A DNA stretch of 64,000 nt from Thioploca ingrica (GTDB taxonomy: Bacteria; Pseudomonadota; Gammaproteobacteria; Beggiatoales; Beggiatoaceae), in NCBI GenBank assembly GCA_000828835.1, contig AP014633.1:1054001-1118000 (forward strand), written 5' to 3'. The notes under the pieces are model-generated. The model was not told the DNA's origin. It worked only from the letters and a program-made list of their open reading frames with translations, and made no database searches. The position numbers and the translations under genes are program-made. Shown piece after piece: positions 1-63,623 of this stretch. Position 1 is the first letter of the stretch; every line of letters begins with the position of its first letter.

Positions 1-953
1 ATTTCAGCTATTTTTTGCTCAAGCGGATTCAATTCGGCATAAGCTTCGTCTGCATGTCGAGACAAGGCTTCGGCTAAACCACCAATGGCTTCATAATGTT
101 GAATCGTCAATACCATAGTGGGGGAATTTTCCGCTTGAGCGAGGTGCCACATGCGCATGAGAGCATGTTGTAATAACGGTAATTGATCGGGATCATTACC
201 CGCGTCATTAAGTAACCGATTGATTAAACCGGGTTCAATTTCACCGTCGAAGACATTGGCTGGTGCTTCAATGGCTTCACGTAGTTGTTCGCGCGTTAAC
301 CGTGGAGTGAGAAATAATCCTTGATTGATCGCTTCAGGTAAATCGTAAAATAAGGCACAGTCGCCAATAAAATCAGAACGCATGGTGATAACGACATAGA
401 CTTGAATGGGCCGAGCTGATAATTGGCTACTGGTTAAGAGTAAGGCGACAAAAGCGGCGGCTTCATTGGCAGCCCCTTGATAATAGTAACGAAAAATTTC
501 TTCAAATTGATCAACCACGATTAACAGATTAGTTTGTTCTGGTAAGGTTGTTTCGCGGAGAACTTCCACTAAACTCAGTGGGCCTCGCCGTAATTGAGCA
601 TGAAGGAAAGCAATCGCTTCAGCGGGTTCTGCAAACGGTAGCGTATATTCGGGACCAATGGCTTTATCGACTAATAAAGCTTCGGCTAAGCGCGCAAAAG
701 GGTGATTACCCGGGCGTAATTCGGCGATTCGCCAATGGACACCGGCAGTGGCTAAAAATCCGGCTTCTAAACCCGCCAGCAATCCGGTACGTACCAGTGA
801 AGATTTACCACATCCTGACGGACCAACCACAGCCATAAAGCGAGTTTGGCCTAATTTTTCGATAAGTTGATCAGTGGCTGCTTCACGTCCAAAAAAGATA
901 TCCGTTTCGTAGCGGTGAAACGGGCGTAAGCCAGGATAAGGAAAATCACTCAT
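1..953 (-). CDS. nSTAND1-type P-loop ATPase, C-terminus beyond window
   Basis: My translation of the minus strand from ATG at 953 is open for 317 codons to the left edge, so only the N-terminal part is present. It starts with the nSTAND1 signature (GLRPFHRYETDIFFGRE, residues 8-24), followed by Walker A GPSGCGKSS at about 44-52 and a Walker B-like LLIVVDQFEEIF at about 143-154. Family members are STAND-class NTPase switches that usually carry C-terminal WD40 or other sensor repeats, which would lie outside the window. The start codon is 3 bp after the stop of the upstream TIR gene, so the two are almost certainly co-transcribed and probably act together, plausibly in a defence or cell-suicide response. 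The family call is firm; the role is inferred. Confidence 0.88.
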   Translation of the reverse strand, partial: MSDFPYPGLRPFHRYETDIFFGREAATDQLIEKLGQTRFMAVVGPSGCGKSSLVRTGLLAGLEAGFLATAGVHWRIAELRPGNHPFARLAEALLVDKAIGPEYTLPFAEPAEAIAFLHAQLRRGPLSLVEVLRETTLPEQTNLLIVVDQFEEIFRYYYQGAANEAAAFVALLLTSSQLSARPIQVYVVITMRSDFIGDCALFYDLPEAINQGLFLTPRLTREQLREAIEAPANVFDGEIEPGLINRLLNDAGNDPDQLPLLQHALMRMWHLAQAENSPTMVLTIQHYEAIGGLAEALSRHADEAYAELNPLEQKIAE

Positions 954-956
954 AAT

Positions 957-2474
957 TTATAATGACTGCAAGAACAGAGGTAAACAACTTTCTACTTGGG
1001 TTGCCGGACAATTTAAAATTTGCATATTAGGTAATTTAATATTCAAAGGAGGTTTGTTAGGAGAAGGTGTGCTATACACTGCAATAATTTTCAAGGGCTG
1101 GTCTCGCAGCCTTTGCATGCGTCGGCAATATAAAAGTTGTTCATTAACCCAAACGGCCGAGGTGTTATCGTAAAGGACGATAATAGAATCACAATAAAGT
1201 AAATTTTGCTCTAAATAATTGCGTATTTCCGCCGCTTTGGTACTCGTAGAAATCTCTAGGGGTAAACTATAACCAATGCCATGCGCATCTAAAATGTCTT
1301 TAATGCGGTGGGCTAACGTCATATCTTCTGGTGCGGCATTGATAAATACTAATATGTCCCCGGCAGTGGTCGGTTTAGGTATCTCAACCGGTGCTGGGGT
1401 TAAGTATTTGATAATGTAGGTTTGAAATTCAAATAAATGCACCGCCATAACGGTACTGGCTTCCAAAAGCGTACGCTGAACTGAATCAGTAACCGTGGTT
1501 AAATTCAACCGGGGATCACGCCATTGCAAAATTGGTAATGATGCTGCTTGAGCACGCTGATATTGAAATAAAGGATAGTTAATAAAACCACCGCTATTAT
1601 CATTTAACAATTGAACAAATAACTGACATTCCTTTAAGTCTTGATCAAGTGATTGTTGTAAAGTGGCGAATGCATATTCTTTCGTTGGTAATATTCGTAC
1701 ACCTTGTTGTTCAAGATAGCCTTTAACTTCTTGACGATGTTTTTCTAAATTTTCGCTCACTTTAGCTAAAAAGACGGTGGTTGTAGGTGGAGAGGTGATA
1801 GTCGGTGTAGGATCAGCCTCGTCAGCGGGTAACCGAGTCGTTAAGGTGGTTGTCGCCGCTATTAGGTCAGCATAATCAGAGGGTAATGTTGGTGTCGTTG
1901 CTAACTTTGCTTGGGCTTCTTGTTTTAATTCTTTCAGTTTTTCAACTAATTGTCGAGCGAGATCATCCAGTTTTTGGTAATATTCAAATTCTTCGGGATT
2001 GGGTTTAGGAATGGCTAAGATACGAGGTTGCCCAAATTCATTGCGTACCCAAAATTTATACCCGAGTAGATCACTTAAATCGGGTGATCGTTCTTCAACG
2101 ATATCGTGTTCAACGACAAAAATCCGCCCGGAATCTTTCCCAGCTATCGCCAACAAAGTATTCAGTTCGAACTGACACCACTGAGATACCTCATAAGCTG
2201 GAGAGAGGATCAACACAAATAGAGCAGAAGTTTCTAGTTGTTTACAAATGTGGGGTGTGGTTGGCGTATTACCCCGTAATTCATGATCCATCCACAATGA
2301 AAACAACTCTGGGCTACCGAGTTTCTTTCCCAATAAAATTTTTAAACCGGTTATTAATGTGGTTACCCAGCCTTTATCTGCTCCGGCAAATGGTTCATCA
2401 TCAACACGAGCATAGCTTACAAAAATATCGTGTTTACAATTAGGAACATAGGCTTTAGGAGCATGAATTAGCAT
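957..2474 (-). CDS. Protein with two or three TIR-like domains
   Basis: 505 residues. An N-terminal TIR domain (about 14-150) opens with HDIFVSYAR and contains SQWCQFEL with Glu103 where the catalytic glutamate of TIR NADases sits. A C-terminal domain (about 370-505) repeats the pattern: DILVFINAAPED, then VWVNEQL with a candidate Glu445. The middle (about 232-355) also looks like a TIR/DUF4062-type Rossmann fold, but without a clear glutamate. The linker at 190-230 is Thr/Pro-rich. TIR domains cleave NAD or make signalling nucleotides in bacterial immunity. The downstream nSTAND1 ATPase suggests an effector-sensor pair. Which domain is active cannot be read from sequence. No strong ribosome-binding site was seen, but the start agrees with the domain boundary. 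Confidence 0.85.
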   Translation of the reverse strand: MLIHAPKAYVPNCKHDIFVSYARVDDEPFAGADKGWVTTLITGLKILLGKKLGSPELFSLWMDHELRGNTPTTPHICKQLETSALFVLILSPAYEVSQWCQFELNTLLAIAGKDSGRIFVVEHDIVEERSPDLSDLLGYKFWVRNEFGQPRILAIPKPNPEEFEYYQKLDDLARQLVEKLKELKQEAQAKLATTPTLPSDYADLIAATTTLTTRLPADEADPTPTITSPPTTTVFLAKVSENLEKHRQEVKGYLEQQGVRILPTKEYAFATLQQSLDQDLKECQLFVQLLNDNSGGFINYPLFQYQRAQAASLPILQWRDPRLNLTTVTDSVQRTLLEASTVMAVHLFEFQTYIIKYLTPAPVEIPKPTTAGDILVFINAAPEDMTLAHRIKDILDAHGIGYSLPLEISTSTKAAEIRNYLEQNLLYCDSIIVLYDNTSAVWVNEQLLYCRRMQRLRDQPLKIIAVYSTPSPNKPPLNIKLPNMQILNCPATQVESCLPLFLQSL

Positions 2475-2565
2475 ATCAATTCGGTTTATTTTCTATAGCT
2501 ATTAGGGTTACTTGACTAGTTTATATAAAGTAATACATTATTTTTTCTGTCAATAGTTATTTAAG

Positions 2566-2940
2566 TTATTTATTTCGTTTTTTATTTCTATAAATCCGGT
2601 TTTGAGGCATATCAATCTTGGGAGGGTCATTCGGTTTGATTTTCTCTTCATTAGTTTGTTCATCGTCGGATTTTTTCGATTTTTCCGTTTCAGGTTTGGT
2701 ATTTTTGCCAGAGATTGATTCTTTCTTACCAGTGATTGATTCTTTCACGTTCGCTGCTCCTAAGTGGGTAGAAGTGACACTCAATAATAATATGAAAGTC
2801 ATAAAAAAACTAGCAAAGTAATTCCTGCTGCTATGATTGTTCCCTGATATATGTTGGTACAGGCTTATTGCCACTATCATCACCATAACCATTATTAAGC
2901 TTAATGGTATTGCTGTTATTAGATAAATGATATTATTCAT
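2566..2940 (-). CDS. Small two-helix membrane protein with charged tail
   Basis: About 124 residues from ATG at 2940. A GTG nine codons upstream (2967) also opens the frame, but its AGGA abuts the start codon, whereas GAGGA lies about 10 nt before the ATG, so I prefer 2940. Two hydrophobic stretches (about residues 4-28 and 40-62) are followed by a Lys/Glu/Asp/Pro-rich hydrophilic tail. No known family was recognised. It lies 91 bp upstream of the TIR gene on the same strand and could be a membrane partner of the TIR/nSTAND1 operon, though this rests on position only. Confidence 0.55.
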   Translation of the reverse strand: MNNIIYLITAIPLSLIMVMVMIVAISLYQHISGNNHSSRNYFASFFMTFILLLSVTSTHLGAANVKESITGKKESISGKNTKPETEKSKKSDDEQTNEEKIKPNDPPKIDMPQNRIYRNKKRNK

Positions 2941-3131
2941 TGACTTTAATTCCTCACTCAAATTCACTCCTAATTATTTTAAGTTTAGCAGCGTTTTTGA
3001 GTTGATGGGGGCTTTCTCAACAGAAAATAAAACCGAATGCTTTAATCATTGGTAGTGCTAAATTGATAGCGATGTTAACAATATGGCCACTCGGGATTAC
3101 AACTCCTTCGCTTGGTTAGCACGACCCAAAA

Positions 3132-4040
3132 TTAGAAAACATGAGCATAGAGACGTAATTGTTCTGCCGTCAATAAAAATACGCCTTCACCACCGCGTTG
3201 AAACTCTAGCCACATAAAAGGCACATCAGGATATTCTGCTATCAAACTGTTTTGGCTCAGACCCACTTCAACAATCAGCACGCCATGGGGGGTTAAATAG
3301 GGTGCTGCTTGCCGCAAAATCCGTTTGACAAACAATAATCCATCTTGTCCCGCAGCTAAACCGACTTTAGGTTCGTAGTGGTATTCCTCTGGCATATTTT
3401 GGAGTTCTTGTGCATCTGCATAAGGCGGATTACAGACAATTAAATCATACTGCTTACCACTCAGGCTAGCAAACAAATCCGAAAATAGGGTATGAACTCG
3501 GTGTTCAAGCCCATAATTTTCAACATTTTTTTGTGCTACTTCGAGGGCTTCACTAGAGATATCGACCGCATCGATTTCTGCTTGTGGAAAAGCTAACATC
3601 GCACTGGCAATCGCAATACAACCGCTGCCCGTACAGAGATCTAACATCCGTTCAATCTGTTCAACTTGAACCCAAGGTTCGAAGCGTTGTTCTATTAATT
3701 CGGCTATGGGCGAGCGAGGAATTAATACCCGCCTATCGACATAAAAACGCAAGTGAGCAAACCAAGCTTCGTGGGTCAGGTAAGGAATGGGAATGCGTTC
3801 TTGGATTCGCCGATTCAGGAATTCAACGATGACTTGTTTTTCTGAGTGAGTGAGTTGAGCATGCCATAAAATGGCTGGAATTTCTGGGGCGAGATGCAAA
3901 GCATATAAAACCAAGGTAGCGGCTTCATCTACCGCATTATCAGTACCATGCCCAAAAAATAACTGAGCTTTGTTGAATTGAGTTGCACCCCAGCGAATAA
4001 AATCACTGATGGTATGTAATTCATCAAGGGGATGTTCCAT
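3132..4040 (-). CDS. prmB: Ribosomal protein L3 glutamine N5-methyltransferase
   Basis: 302 residues, the usual length for PrmB, which methylates a glutamine of ribosomal protein L3 using S-adenosylmethionine. The SAM-binding motif DLCTGSG is at about 134-140 and the glutamine-site motif NPPY at 204-207. The following segment (MPEEYHYEPKVGLAAGQDG) matches PrmB better than the related release-factor enzyme PrmC. The gene stands alone: the TIR operon lies downstream and a palindromic repeat element upstream. It is a housekeeping gene that anchors the gammaproteobacterial assignment. Confidence 0.93.
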   Translation of the reverse strand: MEHPLDELHTISDFIRWGATQFNKAQLFFGHGTDNAVDEAATLVLYALHLAPEIPAILWHAQLTHSEKQVIVEFLNRRIQERIPIPYLTHEAWFAHLRFYVDRRVLIPRSPIAELIEQRFEPWVQVEQIERMLDLCTGSGCIAIASAMLAFPQAEIDAVDISSEALEVAQKNVENYGLEHRVHTLFSDLFASLSGKQYDLIVCNPPYADAQELQNMPEEYHYEPKVGLAAGQDGLLFVKRILRQAAPYLTPHGVLIVEVGLSQNSLIAEYPDVPFMWLEFQRGGEGVFLLTAEQLRLYAHVF

Positions 4041-56667: not shown

Positions 56668-57642
56668 TTATTCAACGGCTTGCATTCCTAACCGACTGAG
56701 TAAATGGCGATCTTGATCGATAGGTAAATTGTCAGTCGTTAATAATTTTTCTCCATAAAAAATAGCGTTAGCACCCGCAAAGAAACATAAGGCTTGTAAT
56801 TCATCACTCATGGTGGCTCGCCCAGCTGATAAACGCACTACCGAAGTTGGCATTAAAATCCGAGCAACGGCGATACAACGTACCCTATCAAACGGATCGA
56901 TTGGTGGTGCTTGAGCGAGAGGAGTTCCAGCAACCGGTACGAGTTGATTAATCGGTACACTTTCAGGATGGTGTGGTAGATTCGCTAAAGTTTGTAACAG
57001 TGCGGCACGATCGGCTAAACTCTCTCCTAAGCCAATAATCCCACCACAACACACTTTCAAATCAGCGGCACGGACATGAGTTAATGTTTCTAAGCGTTCC
57101 TGATAAGGATGGGTGGTCACAATTTGCTCATAGTAAGCAGCAGAAGTGTCGAGATTATGATTGTAATAGTCTAAACCAGCCGCTTTTAATTGTTGTGCTT
57201 GGAGGGCAGTTAACCTCCCTAAAGTCATACAAGTTTCTAAGTTCAGCGCTTTAACCGCCTTAACGATGGCTAATAATTGCGGAAATTCTTGCAACTGCGG
57301 ATTTCGCCCAGCGGCTCCCATACAAAAACGGGTTGCTCCATTGGTTTTAGCTTGACGTGCTGCTGCTACGACAGTTTCAACTGCCATTAACGGTTGAGGT
57401 TTAATGCCCGTATTAAAATGTCCACTTTGGGGGCAATACGCACAGTCCTCTGCACAAGCACCGGTTTTGATATTAAGTAAGGTACTTAGTTGAACTTGAT
57501 TAGGATTAAAATAAGTCCGATGAGTCCATTGTGCTCTGAAAAGTAAATCACTCCAAGCGGTATTAAATAACTCAATCACTTCTTCAAGTAGCCAATCGTG
57601 ACGGATTGGAGTGGGTTCTAGCCAAGCGCTGGTTTTAAACAT
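56668..57642 (-). CDS. bioB: Biotin synthase
   Basis: 324 residues. The radical-SAM cluster motif [13 protein letters not shown] (Cys63, 67, 70) is intact, followed by family segments ([54 protein letters not shown]). It inserts sulfur into dethiobiotin to form biotin. Other bio genes are not adjacent, as is common outside enterobacteria. Length and motifs are complete. Confidence 0.96.
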
Positions 57643-57741: not shown

Positions 57742-60594
57742 TTAATTTTCAGTCAACCACTTATTCAATACTTGGGCAAGGTATTCTTGAGTAACCGGTT
57801 TAGCTAAAAAATCATTCATGCCAGCCGCTAAACATTTTTCGACATCCGCATGGGTGGCACTGGCGGTAATCGCAATGATGGGTAAGGGATGATACTGATT
57901 ATCTTTTTCGCGATCTCGAATTTGCTCAGTCGCTTTATAGCCATTTAAAATGGGCATATGAATATCCATTAAAATAAGATCATAATTTTCTTTGGCGGTC
58001 ATTTCCACTGCTTCTTGACCATCATTAGCTATGTCTACTCGATAGCCAAGCTCTTCTAACATCATTTTTTCTACCACCTGATTGGCTTCATTATCTTCTG
58101 CTAAGAGTAGAATATGAGCGGGTTTAGATATCGCCAACTGTTCTGGAGATGCCACTGGATAGGAGAGCCATTTCCTTAACAGTTGTTCCAAATCTGCTTT
58201 GGTAAAAGGTTTGGTCAAAATATCGTCCATTCCTATTGCTCGGGTAGATTCTGCCAATTTATCGGTGATGATTTCAGCCGTCATCGCGACAATGGTTAAA
58301 TGTAACGGGGTATTTTGTTCTCGCTGGCGAATCTGTTGAGTTGCCGTATAACCATCCATAATAGGCATATGTAAATCCATCAACACGAGGTCATAAGATT
58401 GGTTAGCCGTTATCTCAACCGCTTCTTGACCATGGTTAGCAATTTCCACTCGACAACCCAGTTCTTCTAATGCCATTGTGGCTACAATTTGATTGATCTT
58501 ATCGTCCTCAACTAATAAAACGGTAATATTTAACGATTCAAGCGGTTGAGTTGACCAAGTCGACCAATGACGAGATTCAATCACTGAGTGCATCTCCACC
58601 GGCATAACTGAACTGGACAGTGATAGTGAATTAGAAATCACCGAACCGGTCATAACCACAACCGGTAAATTAAGCCGGAACCAAAAAGTACAGCCCTGAC
58701 CCTCTTGGCTGCCTACACCAATTTCTCCACCCATCAATTCGATTAATTGGCGGCAAATAAACAACCCTAGCCCAGTACCACCATAGTGATTATGAGCACC
58801 CACATCGACTTGATGAAACTTATCAAATAAATAATGCAGTTCCTGTTGTGGAATCCCAATGCCAGTATCAATCACTGCAAAGTAAAGTTGAGCCTTATCG
58901 GCTATTTTTTCCTCGAGTTTAATTTGGATGGTAACACCGCCTTTGGAAGTAAACTTAATTGCATTTCCAAGCAAATTAATTAAGATTTGCCTGAGACGAT
59001 TGTTATCACCTATCACTTGTGGCGGTAAATCATCGCTGGCTTGTATTTCTAACCACAAGCCTTTTTCTCGGGCGCGAATACATAATAAGGAGATGGCTTC
59101 CTCAACCGTTTGTAATAATTTAAATGGTTTAATTTCCAACTCCATTCGACCGGCTTCAATTTTACTGACATCTAACAATTCATTAACAATATTCACTAAA
59201 TTTTTTCCCGATTCATGGAGAATCCGCAACTGTTGTCGTTGCTTATCATTGAGAGGGGTATTTAAGAGCAGTTCTGCCATCCCTAAAATCCCATTCATCG
59301 GCGTGCGTAATTCATGACTAATATTCGCTACAAATTCACTTTTAGCTTGGTTAGCGGCTTCGGCTTTCTGATGTTCTATTTCTAATTCTTGATTTAATTG
59401 TTCTAAACTGAGCGTACGCAATCTCACTTTTTCTTCTAATTCCGCATTGACTTGCTCAATTTGCTGCAATGCGGTTCGTAATCGAACCACCATATTATTA
59501 AAGCAATGGTAAAGCGAACCAATTTCATCGGAGGGACGCTCCGGCAACTGTACTGCTAAGTTATCTGTCCCAACTTGTTGACTCGCTTCAGCTAAGAGTT
59601 GAATCGGATTAATCACTAAATAGTTAAGCGCGAAAAACAGCAAAATAAAGGTAGTCGCAATGGTTGCTAGAGTAACAATCGCAAATAAAATCTTGATAGG
59701 TTGTCCGGCAGCTAAAACATCTTCCTGTGGTAATAAGGCAAACAGATATAAATTGTCGTGCAATTGAGCACCCTGCAAGTAAACCGTCTGTTCGGCTAAT
59801 TTGACTGGTAAAGGTTCATTTTCATGATGAGGTTGGAGTAATCGAGGAAATTCTGTTGCCGGTAGCTGATGCAGTTGCTGAGTTAGCGCATTAGGGGGTT
59901 GTAATAATATTCGTCCTTCTCCATCGGTTAGCAGTAAATAGCCATTTTCACTGATCTCACCAATTTTGATGTGTTCAGTTAAAAAATAGGGATGCATAAT
60001 AATCAACAAATAACCGCGTGGTGGGATTAAAGCATTAGCGGGCGTATTAACCAAAAAACTCTGCGGAAACAATTTTTTAGCAATGATAAAATAAGAATTT
60101 TGTGAAGACTTACCCACAAAAAAAATATCAATCAAGTTAGCCGAGTTTTTAATCTGCGAAAAATAGGCGGCTTTATCAGTTTGACTGAAGATATTTTTAT
60201 TATTCTTTTCATTAATAAAACCGGTGACTTCTGAACCATCGGGTAATAATACCTGAATATTATAATAATCTTGGTAAACATGTTGGTAGCTATTAAATAG
60301 ATAAGGCATACGAGTTTGTAAAGCCTGCATAGCTAAACGACGCTCGTCTTTGTCAGTAATCGATAAATAACTATTCAGTAAACCCGACTCTGACAACAAT
60401 TCAATATTAACTTGAGCGGTTTGTAAGCGAAATTGGGCACCTTGATAAACCTGCTTTAACAGGGTTCCCATTTGCATCAATACCTTTTGTTTAGTCGTAT
60501 CAACTACATAGTCATAAGACAGTTTACCCAATAATACAATAGGAATAACAACCAATGGAATTAAAATAAGAGTCAGTTTAGTCTTAAGTGTCAT
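57742..60594 (-). CDS. Membrane hybrid histidine kinase with two receivers
   Basis: 950 residues from ATG at 60594; a TTG seven codons earlier is possible and neither has a good ribosome-binding site. Order: membrane helix (about 6-27), a Cache-like periplasmic sensor (about 28-290), a second helix (about 298-325), HAMP (about 325-380), coiled coil, HisKA with His in [15 protein letters not shown], ATPase ([29 protein letters not shown]), and two receivers (phosphoacceptors in [13 protein letters not shown] and [13 protein letters not shown]). Likely senses a small extracellular ligand and feeds a phosphorelay. No HPt or output partner is adjacent. Confidence 0.93.
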
Positions 60595-60793
60595 TGCAAA
60601 TGTACTGTTGATCAAATAAAGATAAGGTTTATCATGATGTTAGCATTTTCATCTATAACCTTAATAAGGTATTAATCTATACACATTGTACGCCTACCTG
60701 TCAATCAAATTTTAGGTTCTTACTTCCCTAAAATCATAACCATTTTGCTATTTTTGCGGTTAAATAGCTAACTAGCGGCTTTAAATCGAGGGG

Positions 60794-61282
60794 TTAATGG
60801 CTTGGTTCCAATAACTGATTAAGAATTAAACCATAAAAACGATCACTTGGAGATTGATAAAACCAACCTAAGTGGAGATGACAATAGGAACAAAGTGCAT
60901 AACGCCAAGCAAATCCATTAAACCAAGTATATTCTAAAGTAGGAGCACCATAATTAACACAACCATTTGCGGAAGCAAAACAACCCATTTCAAACACAAA
61001 CCCCGTTGGGTTACTAAAAATATGGCGATGTGCTCCATTAACTTGAATCTTCTGGTCGAGAGAAGTAATGGCGTGGTGGCAAACTTTACAAAGGATTGGC
61101 TTTTTTTCAGGTAATTGTTGTTGCTCTAATTGTTTTGGTATGGTTTCAAATTGTTCTTCATCAACCAGTTGAAAAAAATAATTTTTCTGGGCAATAAAGC
61201 TATAAAAACACGGTAGCTCTCTAAACCGGAGATTAATTTGATACGGTAAAGAGAGTTGGGAAAAATTCACTAATCGACTCAA
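60794..61282 (-). CDS. CULT-domain (cereblon-like) protein
   Basis: 162 residues from TTG at 61282 (GTG at 61270 is an alternative; no ATG is available, and a stop lies just upstream). The C-terminal 100 residues match the CULT domain, known from human cereblon and a Magnetospirillum protein: zinc ligands C65-x2-C68 and C131-x2-C134, and the ligand cage TWFNGFAW (Trp120, Trp126) plus HLGW (Trp140), with the same 6-residue spacing as human Trp380/Trp386. The cage binds uridine-like and imide ligands such as thalidomide. The N-terminal 60 residues are not recognised. Single gene; natural ligand unknown. Confidence 0.85.
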   Translation of the reverse strand: MSRLVNFSQLSLPYQINLRFRELPCFYSFIAQKNYFFQLVDEEQFETIPKQLEQQQLPEKKPILCKVCHHAITSLDQKIQVNGAHRHIFSNPTGFVFEMGCFASANGCVNYGAPTLEYTWFNGFAWRYALCSYCHLHLGWFYQSPSDRFYGLILNQLLEPSH

Positions 61283-61393: not shown

Positions 61394-61688
61394 GTATACT
61401 ATCGATTATTTTTTTACCTAAGTTACAATCGTTACATGAAACACTAGACGAACGACTTTGCCTAATTTTTGCATGGTAGATGATCTGAGGTTAAATAACT
61501 TCATTTTGAAGTGAATATCATTCTCTAATTTAACTTCAGCACAATTTACCCAATTATCAAAATAAAATCAGAAGAAATATTTTTTTAATTGGTCTTATTG
61601 TTTTTTCATGAAACTGCTATACTTTACTTTTAGTACTAAAATAGTGTAAAATAATAATTTATCCTTCTTAACAATGAAGGGAAACCAT

Positions 61689-63623
61689 ATGCCCAACACA
61701 GCTTGCTTAAATAATCAACTTCTTCTTAAATTCCTAGGCCTTATTTTATTTATTTCACCATTGGCTTTAGCACAAGCCACTACTCAGTGTTCAACCGTAA
61801 CTGCAATTCCCATCACCGAATGTGAAGTACTTCTCACTCTCTATAACCAAACTAACGGTACTTCTTGGCAAAAAAATACCGGCTGGAATGAAAACAATAC
61901 GCCATGTCAATGGTGGGGAGTGACTTGTGACAACGGTTATGTAACTAAACTTTACCTAGAAAACAATAACCTCAATGGCTCTATTCCGGATTCACTGGGT
62001 TACTTAAACCAATTACAAGAACTTTCCTTAAGTAAAAACCAATTAAGTGGTTCCATTCCGGATTCTTTAGGTCAATTAAAGCGTTTAAAAATCCTGTATC
62101 TAAGCGGTAATCACCTCGAGGGTTTTATTCCTAACTCGTTGGGTGACTTAATGAATTTACAAGGACTATATTTAAACAGTAATCAACTGAATGGTTCTAT
62201 TCCAGAATCACTTGGAAACTTAGACTTATTGCAAACCCTATCTTTAAATAATAATCAACTGAATGCCGTTATTCCTGATTCATTAGGCAACTTAAGTCAT
62301 TTACAAGGACTCGATTTAAGCCATAATCAAATTACCGGTTCTATTCCTCGTCCCCTAATCAATTTGAAAAAATTACAGCGGCTTAAGCTGGATCATAACC
62401 AACTAAGCGGTGCTTTGCCTGACTGGCTAGAAAAGTTAAGCGATTTACAATGGCTGGTTTTAAATGATAATCAACTGAGCGGCTCTATTCCTGACTCATT
62501 AGGAAATCTAAACTATTTGCAAGTACTGTATTTAGATAACAACCAATTAACGGGTTCCATTCCAGAATCGCTAGGAAATTTAGCTAATCTACAACAACTG
62601 GTCCTAGAAAATAATCAACTCAGCGGTACTGTTCCGGAAACACTGGGAAACTTAAATAATTTGCAAGATCTCTATCTAAGCAATAATGAATTATGTGGAG
62701 ATATTCCACCGACATTAATGAACTTAACGGGGCTTAGTTATTTAAGTTTAGACGATAACCATTTAACTTACGCTGATTCTAATTTATTTAACTGGATCAA
62801 TAATTTAAATTCAGATTGGGCCAGTACTCAAACCCCTTGCTTGAAAAATTCACCGGCAAAATTAAATCCTCAGGTTACCGAACCCAATCCTCCAACCAAA
62901 GAGAATTCAACCTGTTTACTTTACGCCTTACAAGATGAAGGTCTCAATAATACTCAATTCTTTACGGTTGATCCCCAAAAGAATTTTGCCGTTACGCCAT
63001 TAGGAAATGTTCATCCGGAGTATGATATTGAAGATATGGATATTCTTTCAGCAACTACCGAAATTTATGCTTCATCGGGTGATGATGCTCAAGCCAATCA
63101 TGAAAAAGGTTATATCTATCAAGTTAACCCAGCTAATGGTGAATTAACGCCGGTTTGCAGTACTGGATTAGGCAAAGTATCAGCTATCTCTTTCTATCCC
63201 AATAGTCAAGATTTATGGATATGGGCGGGAGGTAAAGGACTCTTTGTTATTGATCTGAAACAAATTAATAATGGTGTTTGTCACCCCCAAGAAATATTTC
63301 GTTATTCTGCCCAAGTAGAAGGGATTACTTGGGATCCTGAAGGTAAGATCCTTTATGGCGCTAAGGGAACCACTTTATATAAATATTTTCACGATACCGG
63401 TACAGTTGCAAAAGTTTGTGATAATTTCCCGAAGGGCGCCGAAGCCCTAGAAATGTCAACGGATGATTCACTTTTATTTGCTGTGCACCAGGCTAAAGAT
63501 ACTTCTATTCACTCATTTGATATTAACAGTTGTTCTATCGTTGATAAAGCTGATTTTCCCATTAAAACCCCTTATAACGATATTGAAGGTATGGCTTGGA
63601 CCTGTCATTCCAACTCAAAATGA
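61689..63623 (+). CDS. Exported leucine-rich-repeat protein, plant-like LRR type
   Basis: 644 residues from ATG at 61689 (AAGGGA about 8 nt upstream), preferred to ATG at 61674. After a signal peptide (cleavage near LALAQ) comes an LRR N-cap with WQKNTGWN and CQWWGVTCD. About 12 LRRs of 24 residues follow, consensus LQxLxLxxNQLSGSIPDSLG, which is the plant receptor-kinase type. The C-terminal 240 residues (about 395-644) read like a short beta-propeller (EDMDILSATTEIYASSGDDA, WIWAGGKGLFVIDL). It is probably secreted or on the outer surface and may bind proteins or other cells. No membrane anchor is obvious. Confidence 0.88.
   Translation: MPNTACLNNQLLLKFLGLILFISPLALAQATTQCSTVTAIPITECEVLLTLYNQTNGTSWQKNTGWNENNTPCQWWGVTCDNGYVTKLYLENNNLNGSIPDSLGYLNQLQELSLSKNQLSGSIPDSLGQLKRLKILYLSGNHLEGFIPNSLGDLMNLQGLYLNSNQLNGSIPESLGNLDLLQTLSLNNNQLNAVIPDSLGNLSHLQGLDLSHNQITGSIPRPLINLKKLQRLKLDHNQLSGALPDWLEKLSDLQWLVLNDNQLSGSIPDSLGNLNYLQVLYLDNNQLTGSIPESLGNLANLQQLVLENNQLSGTVPETLGNLNNLQDLYLSNNELCGDIPPTLMNLTGLSYLSLDDNHLTYADSNLFNWINNLNSDWASTQTPCLKNSPAKLNPQVTEPNPPTKENSTCLLYALQDEGLNNTQFFTVDPQKNFAVTPLGNVHPEYDIEDMDILSATTEIYASSGDDAQANHEKGYIYQVNPANGELTPVCSTGLGKVSAISFYPNSQDLWIWAGGKGLFVIDLKQINNGVCHPQEIFRYSAQVEGITWDPEGKILYGAKGTTLYKYFHDTGTVAKVCDNFPKGAEALEMSTDDSLLFAVHQAKDTSIHSFDINSCSIVDKADFPIKTPYNDIEGMAWTCHSNSK

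Follow-up and report, generated by a model that had tools for sequence, protein, structure and literature searches.

Identity, fold and ligand cage

What might a cereblon-like domain do when it stands alone in a bacterium? The question is raised by a minus-strand open reading frame of 162 amino acids with a TTG start (60794..61282) in the window, by which we mean the whole 64,000-nucleotide stretch of the Thioploca ingrica genome (4.81 Mb, single contig) analyzed here. Read from 61282 to 60794, the frame encodes a bacterial CULT (cereblon-like) protein, with a similarity far beyond chance: phmmer aligned residues 60–159 to MsCI4 (4v2y) with an E value of 6.6e-23 and, among the matches listed, the protein to cereblon chains with E values of 5.8e-11 to 2.4e-8. 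The Yippee-Mis18 match in Pfam was sub-threshold (20.9 bits versus a cut-off of 26.6), and the NCBIfam scan of the frame gave no match at 1e-5. By eye, the only alternative early start is a GTG at codon 5. Relative to the closest copy found, in a same-genus genome (G040, 75% identical; 69% for locus L017), dN/dS is ~0.43 across the gene and 0.72 over residues 1–30, where sites are few, which makes coding less certain for this segment than for the remainder.

AlphaFold, supplied with 77 aligned sequences, predicted a CULT beta-tent domain of eight strands for residues 61–160 (60803..61102, minus strand), with a pLDDT of ~98 in the core. Foldseek and VIA matched the model to MsCI4 (Z up to 19.8) and human CRBN (Z up to 18.1), as well as to the cereblon chain 9nr3, titled CRBN-DDB1 with GLUL-cN (Z 17.5); the structure search also returned 4v31, in which MsCI4 is bound to deoxyuridine. 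Although a 60-residue tail predicted to be disordered precedes the core, AlphaFold predicted no second folded domain in the frame. Pfam gave no LON match up to E 1 in the 162 residues, and the frame contains no region for DDB1 binding. An earlier note, made from the sequence alone, had described the protein as a free-standing CULT domain that is not part of a ubiquitin ligase, and both statements are borne out: without a LON part, the protein as it stands cannot take the part of cereblon as an E3 receptor.

Among known systems, MsCI4 (MGR_0879 of Magnetospirillum gryphiswaldense) resembles the window protein in being a single CULT domain with the zinc site and the same cage spacing, at 35–39% identity. 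The thalidomide-binding domain of human cereblon has the fold and the cage in common with it at ~30% identity, but human cereblon also has a LON domain, whereas the window frame lacks it and hence the DDB1-binding part. Animal secreted CULT proteins (PMC4287342) are likewise free-standing but carry a signal sequence, and none is evident by eye here. Yippee and Mis18 are described as sharing the beta-tent fold (PMC4287342).

The zinc site consists of two CxxC pairs, C65 and C68 (61079..61090) and C131 and C134 (60881..60892), and the cage of W120 (60923-60925) and W126 (60905-60907), together spanning 60905..60925, and W140 (60863..60865), all on the minus strand and identified from the alignment and an unfiltered profile set. 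Thus, the four cysteines and three tryptophans named in the earlier note are indeed present. The tryptophan spacings, 6 and 14, equal those of the published cage residues W79/W85/W99 of MsCI4 and W380/W386/W400 of human cereblon (PMC8900816). The unfiltered profile set comprises 93 further places collected with no motif filter, two of which (L258 and L262) are fragments, and its printed residue tallies also include the window's own row. All seven residues are kept in 90 of 91 full-length relatives in this set, the sole exception being L232, which has Leu in place of W120; Asn91 is kept in 92/92 covered places, and position 142, which we take to correspond to human F402, is Tyr or Phe in 92/92. 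Alignment A2 was built from 76 of the 80 genome loci; L085 and L086 did not fit the pattern, and L019 and L080 were excluded manually. In part, its Cys and Trp counts are a consequence of selection with the locus pattern and the scan pattern, for which the unfiltered set serves as the check, whereas the conservation of Asn91, Phe149, Leu152 and Tyr/Phe142 in 77/77 sequences was not built in by selection. An earlier alignment used for the zinc and cage residues omitted the broken copy of genome G028. Computation thus shows that the tryptophan cage is complete and that the zinc beta-tent fold is present in the window protein.

CULT genes across bacteria

In 2015, the bacterial CULT proteins described were mainly from deltaproteobacteria, with a few others (PMC4287342), and the earlier note had likewise considered them few. 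Genome searches instead recovered them in numbers from several phyla: CULT is found in at least 21/398 genomes of the window's phylum, the window's included, at least 32/392 in the phylum of the spirochaete L037, at least 11/295 in that of L035 (Nitrospiraceae) and at least 29/297 in that of L065 (Deltaproteobacteria), where the first 10 to 13 candidates were scored in large genomes and the genome at the center of each search, with a known CULT, is counted. From the genome contigs, a single narrow pattern recovered 114 relatives by itself, and 80 of these were kept. Within the family, 15 of 42 genomes carry CULT, one of them only as a broken copy. Stand-alone CULT proteins, already known in bacteria, are therefore widespread here. 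A mobile-element origin was rejected, as viral contigs, phages and plasmids yielded no CULT relative at the limits used.

In a tree of 79 cores, the window protein falls into a starred group of 10 whose other nine members are Pseudomonadota (support 99/96). Its neighbors in the tree, weakly supported (81/89), are two spirochaetes, including the LonA-linked L037, and one Aminicenantes record; two other Thiotrichaceae records, L036 and L084, are placed elsewhere. Transfer of CULT between phyla is possible.

A disordered tail with an aromatic patch

The N-terminal tail (residues 1–60; 61103..61282, minus strand) had been taken for an extension of unknown fold. The AlphaFold prediction replaces this with a disordered tail that forms no domain: mean pLDDT values over residues 1–50 are 51–59 per block, and residues 1–61 have no secondary structure. 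In relatives, tail length ranges from 23 to 64 residues (median 44). The starts were set no more than 62 residues ahead of the first zinc cysteine, a choice on which the tail results depend. Their sequence is variable, and a charged linker lies between the domain and an aromatic patch, which in the window protein reads NYFFQLVD (residues 34–41; 61160..61183, minus strand), 31 to 24 residues before C65.

The position of this patch is what is conserved. Among 97 tails, the aromatic fraction peaks at –32 to –29 from the first zinc cysteine (0.256 versus a shuffled maximum of 0.100), and the peak persists among the 23 tails whose cores are <50% identical (0.24 versus 0.13); in both sets it was matched by none of 500 shuffles. 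Three or more hydrophobic residues out of six occur at the patch position in 52 of 89 tails (shuffle mean 15.8, maximum 25), a count restricted to tails of at least 30 residues and to a place picked after the peak had been seen. In the L017 copy, the 15-residue segment that contains the patch in the window protein is missing, and another Leu-Phe stretch sits at the same distance. Computation thus shows a disordered tail carrying an aromatic patch at a conserved distance from the first zinc cysteine. In MsCI4, by contrast, the tail is only ~20 residues in the alignment, against ~60 here, too short for the patch position.

An exact 8-residue tail motif was also considered and rejected: it scored 175.1 versus 131.1 in locally shuffled tails (sd 4.0, 79 tails) but was not robust, as its excess shrank with more divergent cores, to z 2.7 below 60% identity (54 tails), and had vanished below 50% (z –1.0, 23 tails) and 45% (z 1.2, eight tails). 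A 9-residue motif trained on Pseudomonadota gave a combined p of 0.0016 on 24 tails from other phyla and p 0.18 in the reverse held-out test on 55 tails, a mixed outcome. Because the exact motif fails once related sequences are removed, only the fixed-distance patch is claimed. According to PMC4287342, the N-terminal extension of human cereblon runs alongside the drug site, and by analogy the bacterial tail could act as a lid over the ligand site.

Linkage to Lon-family proteases and RpoH

Neighborhoods vary widely among the relatives, with no universal partner gene, and 34 of 75 loci have no same-strand neighbor within 150 bp. A survey of neighbors, suggested in the earlier note, nevertheless brought out linkage to Lon-family proteases and to RpoH in some relatives. 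Loci L019, L136, L200, L201, L207, L218, L219 and L223 are outside the neighbor counts; where the pattern had given no CULT (17 loci), a second attempt at 15 recovered nine.

In seven loci from three lineages, CULT adjoins a Lon-family protease gene. In L037, the gene ~140 bp downstream on the CULT strand is lon (LonA; PF02190 E 4e-46, TIGR00763 over cut-off). L074 has a LonC-like protease (AAA_32, LonB_AAA-LID, LonC_helical, Lon_C) convergent with CULT, end to end. The remaining cases belong to one CULT subfamily, in which five of seven loci have LonC and a bifunctional-nuclease gene (BFN, PF02577) beside CULT, in the order CULT-LonC-nuclease in L263 (3244-7081), L264 (2945-6419) and L277 (3414-6709) and LonC-nuclease-CULT in L276 (4433-7909) and L278 (1921-5569). 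Searching ~4 kb on each side of the other two, L275 and L279, revealed no such cluster. The occurrence of the three genes together in two orders speaks for function, and CULT, the LonC-like protease and the BFN gene possibly form a three-part system. The flanks of 107 loci contain two clear Lon-family genes, both immediate neighbors of CULT, and a search of 223 loci (duplicates included) for a Lon link added L260 and L261. By a rough hand estimate, well under one Lon-adjacent lineage is expected by chance among ~160 loci; the Lon idea was formed after L037 had been seen, and later loci were searched for Lon. The lon gene of the L037 MAG (822-3242) is broken into two frames, with the protease part at 2454-3242, and the split may be either genuine or an assembly error.

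For the window's gene, which has no protease neighbor, the Lon link is indirect, since LonC (sought as PF13654) was not found in its genome and the tail is too short, in the CULT proteins of the five LonC clusters, to extend to the patch position. For the latter reason, patch and Lon cannot be regarded as one device. Across the 42 family genomes, a single one, which has no CULT, gave a LonC match. PMC3391209 describes a LonC-type protease without ATP-powered unfolding.

In relatives from the same family as the window's genome, CULT is gene-linked to the heat-shock sigma factor RpoH. In L018, L020, L021 and L022, RpoH lies upstream of CULT and on its strand, with TIGR02392 over cut-off in all four and one small opposite frame between the two genes in L021; tblastn also placed RpoH before the broken CULT in L136 and 1.8 kb upstream of CULT in L019. 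The frame-broken copy of G028, a family member, occupies L136:7945-8295, still downstream of rpoH.

A putative reader of damaged protein ends

Of the guesses in the earlier note, sensing of damaged or cyclised protein ends is, in our judgment, the best supported. It is favored on account of the published cereblon biochemistry together with the Lon-family neighbors in relatives. Human cereblon is reported to recognize cyclic imides at C termini, a modification that PCMT1 can generate (PMC11974815, PMC13001092). The explanation that we tentatively put forward as the best is that the window protein is a cytoplasmic single-domain CULT receptor that reads C-terminal cyclic imides on damaged proteins and serves proteolysis. 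As in human cereblon, the cage would bind the cyclised Asn or Gln ends of ageing or damaged proteins; the disordered tail would serve as a tether, docking the protein to a partner; and the cargo would then be handed to a housekeeping protease. ClpS and SspB are bacterial proteolysis adaptors, and the proposed scheme would work in their manner, the analogy being that a small domain binds the cargo and a flexible tail docks, with no relation in sequence or fold claimed. Beyond the fold and the cage, every step is one that we infer. All 42 family genomes gave a match to PIMT, which exceeded the curated cut-off in 33, so that imide chemistry is available throughout the family but does not single out CULT carriers; PIMT co-occurrence was accordingly discarded as a marker for CULT.

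Cereblon itself is a LON-CULT fusion. A wider proposal, which we consider unlikely, is a bacterial cyclic-imide C-degron pathway without ubiquitin, in which CULT would read the ends and Lon-family proteases would receive them; the cereblon fusion would then be a relic and the ligase role a later one. Among the open-licence PMC papers listed by the literature searches, we noted none on a proteolysis role, a Lon neighbor or a tail patch of bacterial CULT proteins. In crystallography, bacterial CULT proteins serve as models for thalidomide-type drugs. Should they indeed contribute to the removal of damaged proteins, what cereblon does naturally would predate ubiquitin, and a new degron, together with a receptor that drugs can address, would be added to bacterial proteolysis. 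The CULT-LonC-nuclease clusters offer a direct, testable system.

Alternative explanations

It is somewhat unlikely, in our estimate, that the Lon and RpoH linkages reflect chance or clade-bound hitch-hiking and that the role of CULT is unrelated to either. The diversity of the neighborhoods suits this explanation, as does the recurrence of other genes, namely Bat-type (VWA/BatD) genes and, in a gammaproteobacterial clade, TauE; the RpoH linkage may be one event, LonA beside CULT is a single case with a gene in two frames, and in the LonC-linked subfamily the flanks covered show no cluster at two of seven loci. Against it, the association of CULT with LonC and nuclease persists across two different gene orders, Lon-family genes stand by CULT in three lineages, and both clear cases in the 107 sets of flanks are directly adjacent. 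Quite unlikely is a small-molecule sensor, whose cage would bind uracil, uridine or another heterocycle and signal to a partner. MsCI4 binds uracil and uridine (PMC4287342), and its deoxyuridine structure matches the window model. The next downstream gene in the window encodes a hybrid histidine kinase (HAMP, HisKA, HATPase_c, two receivers; 57742..60615, minus strand), as it does directly downstream on the same strand in L017, the other Thioploca-type genome. Histidine kinases recur near CULT (a kinase-like cluster within 8 kb in eight loci, and HATPase_c in 4/78 immediate neighbors scanned, among the Pfam families listed), which would suit a sensor; the Pfam scan covered 158 of 204 neighbors and the first 25 of 88 and of 99 families. 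However, among 14 family loci, a same-strand kinase after CULT occurs in this genus only, and inspection by eye shows opposite-strand kinases ending beside CULT in L021 and L133. On the strand opposite CULT in L264, a gene that looks carB-like by eye (pyrimidine/arginine synthesis) starts ~1.1 kb away, but among the neighbor-cluster representatives no pyrimidine gene was noticed by eye.

We regard as improbable a partnership with UPF0047 (YjbQ) in the repair of a metabolite or protein, in which CULT would capture a damaged ring compound and UPF0047 act on it. UPF0047 recurs across more lineages than Lon, at distances of up to ~2.3 kb from CULT: in a gammaproteobacterial clade, in Beggiatoaceae (L029), in Nitrospirota (L026), in L065 and in the spirochaete phylum (L186 and, by tblastn only, L171). 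Yet the family is common on its own, being present in 29 of 42 family genomes, and the contrast between those with CULT (13/15) and those without (16/27) is weak. Moreover, all three copies in the window's genome lie >1 Mb from CULT, and the function of UPF0047 is, to our knowledge, unsettled, which we count against this partnership. Reading of damaged protein ends remains the explanation that we tentatively prefer.

Further observations on the neighborhood

The recurrence of UPF0047 near CULT was noted at L026:9390-10336, L029:9158-10303, L186:4359-4760, L171:1086-1484 and L065:9576-9998, and by coordinates the two genes are head-to-head in L026, L029, L186 and L171. In the window, scanning the gap between CULT and the kinase gave no terminator-like site, and the promoter scan at the locus returned 6 sites versus 6.0 expected. 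The kinase is followed by a minus-strand gene (56668..57642) that we take to be biotin synthase-like. Upstream of CULT, on the opposite strand, a large leucine-rich-repeat protein is recognizable by eye (61674-63623). In L204, L205, L206 and L209, all from one family of their phylum, CULT ends a run of VWA/BatD genes, and in L134, a Beggiatoaceae-type genome, it follows a VWA gene.
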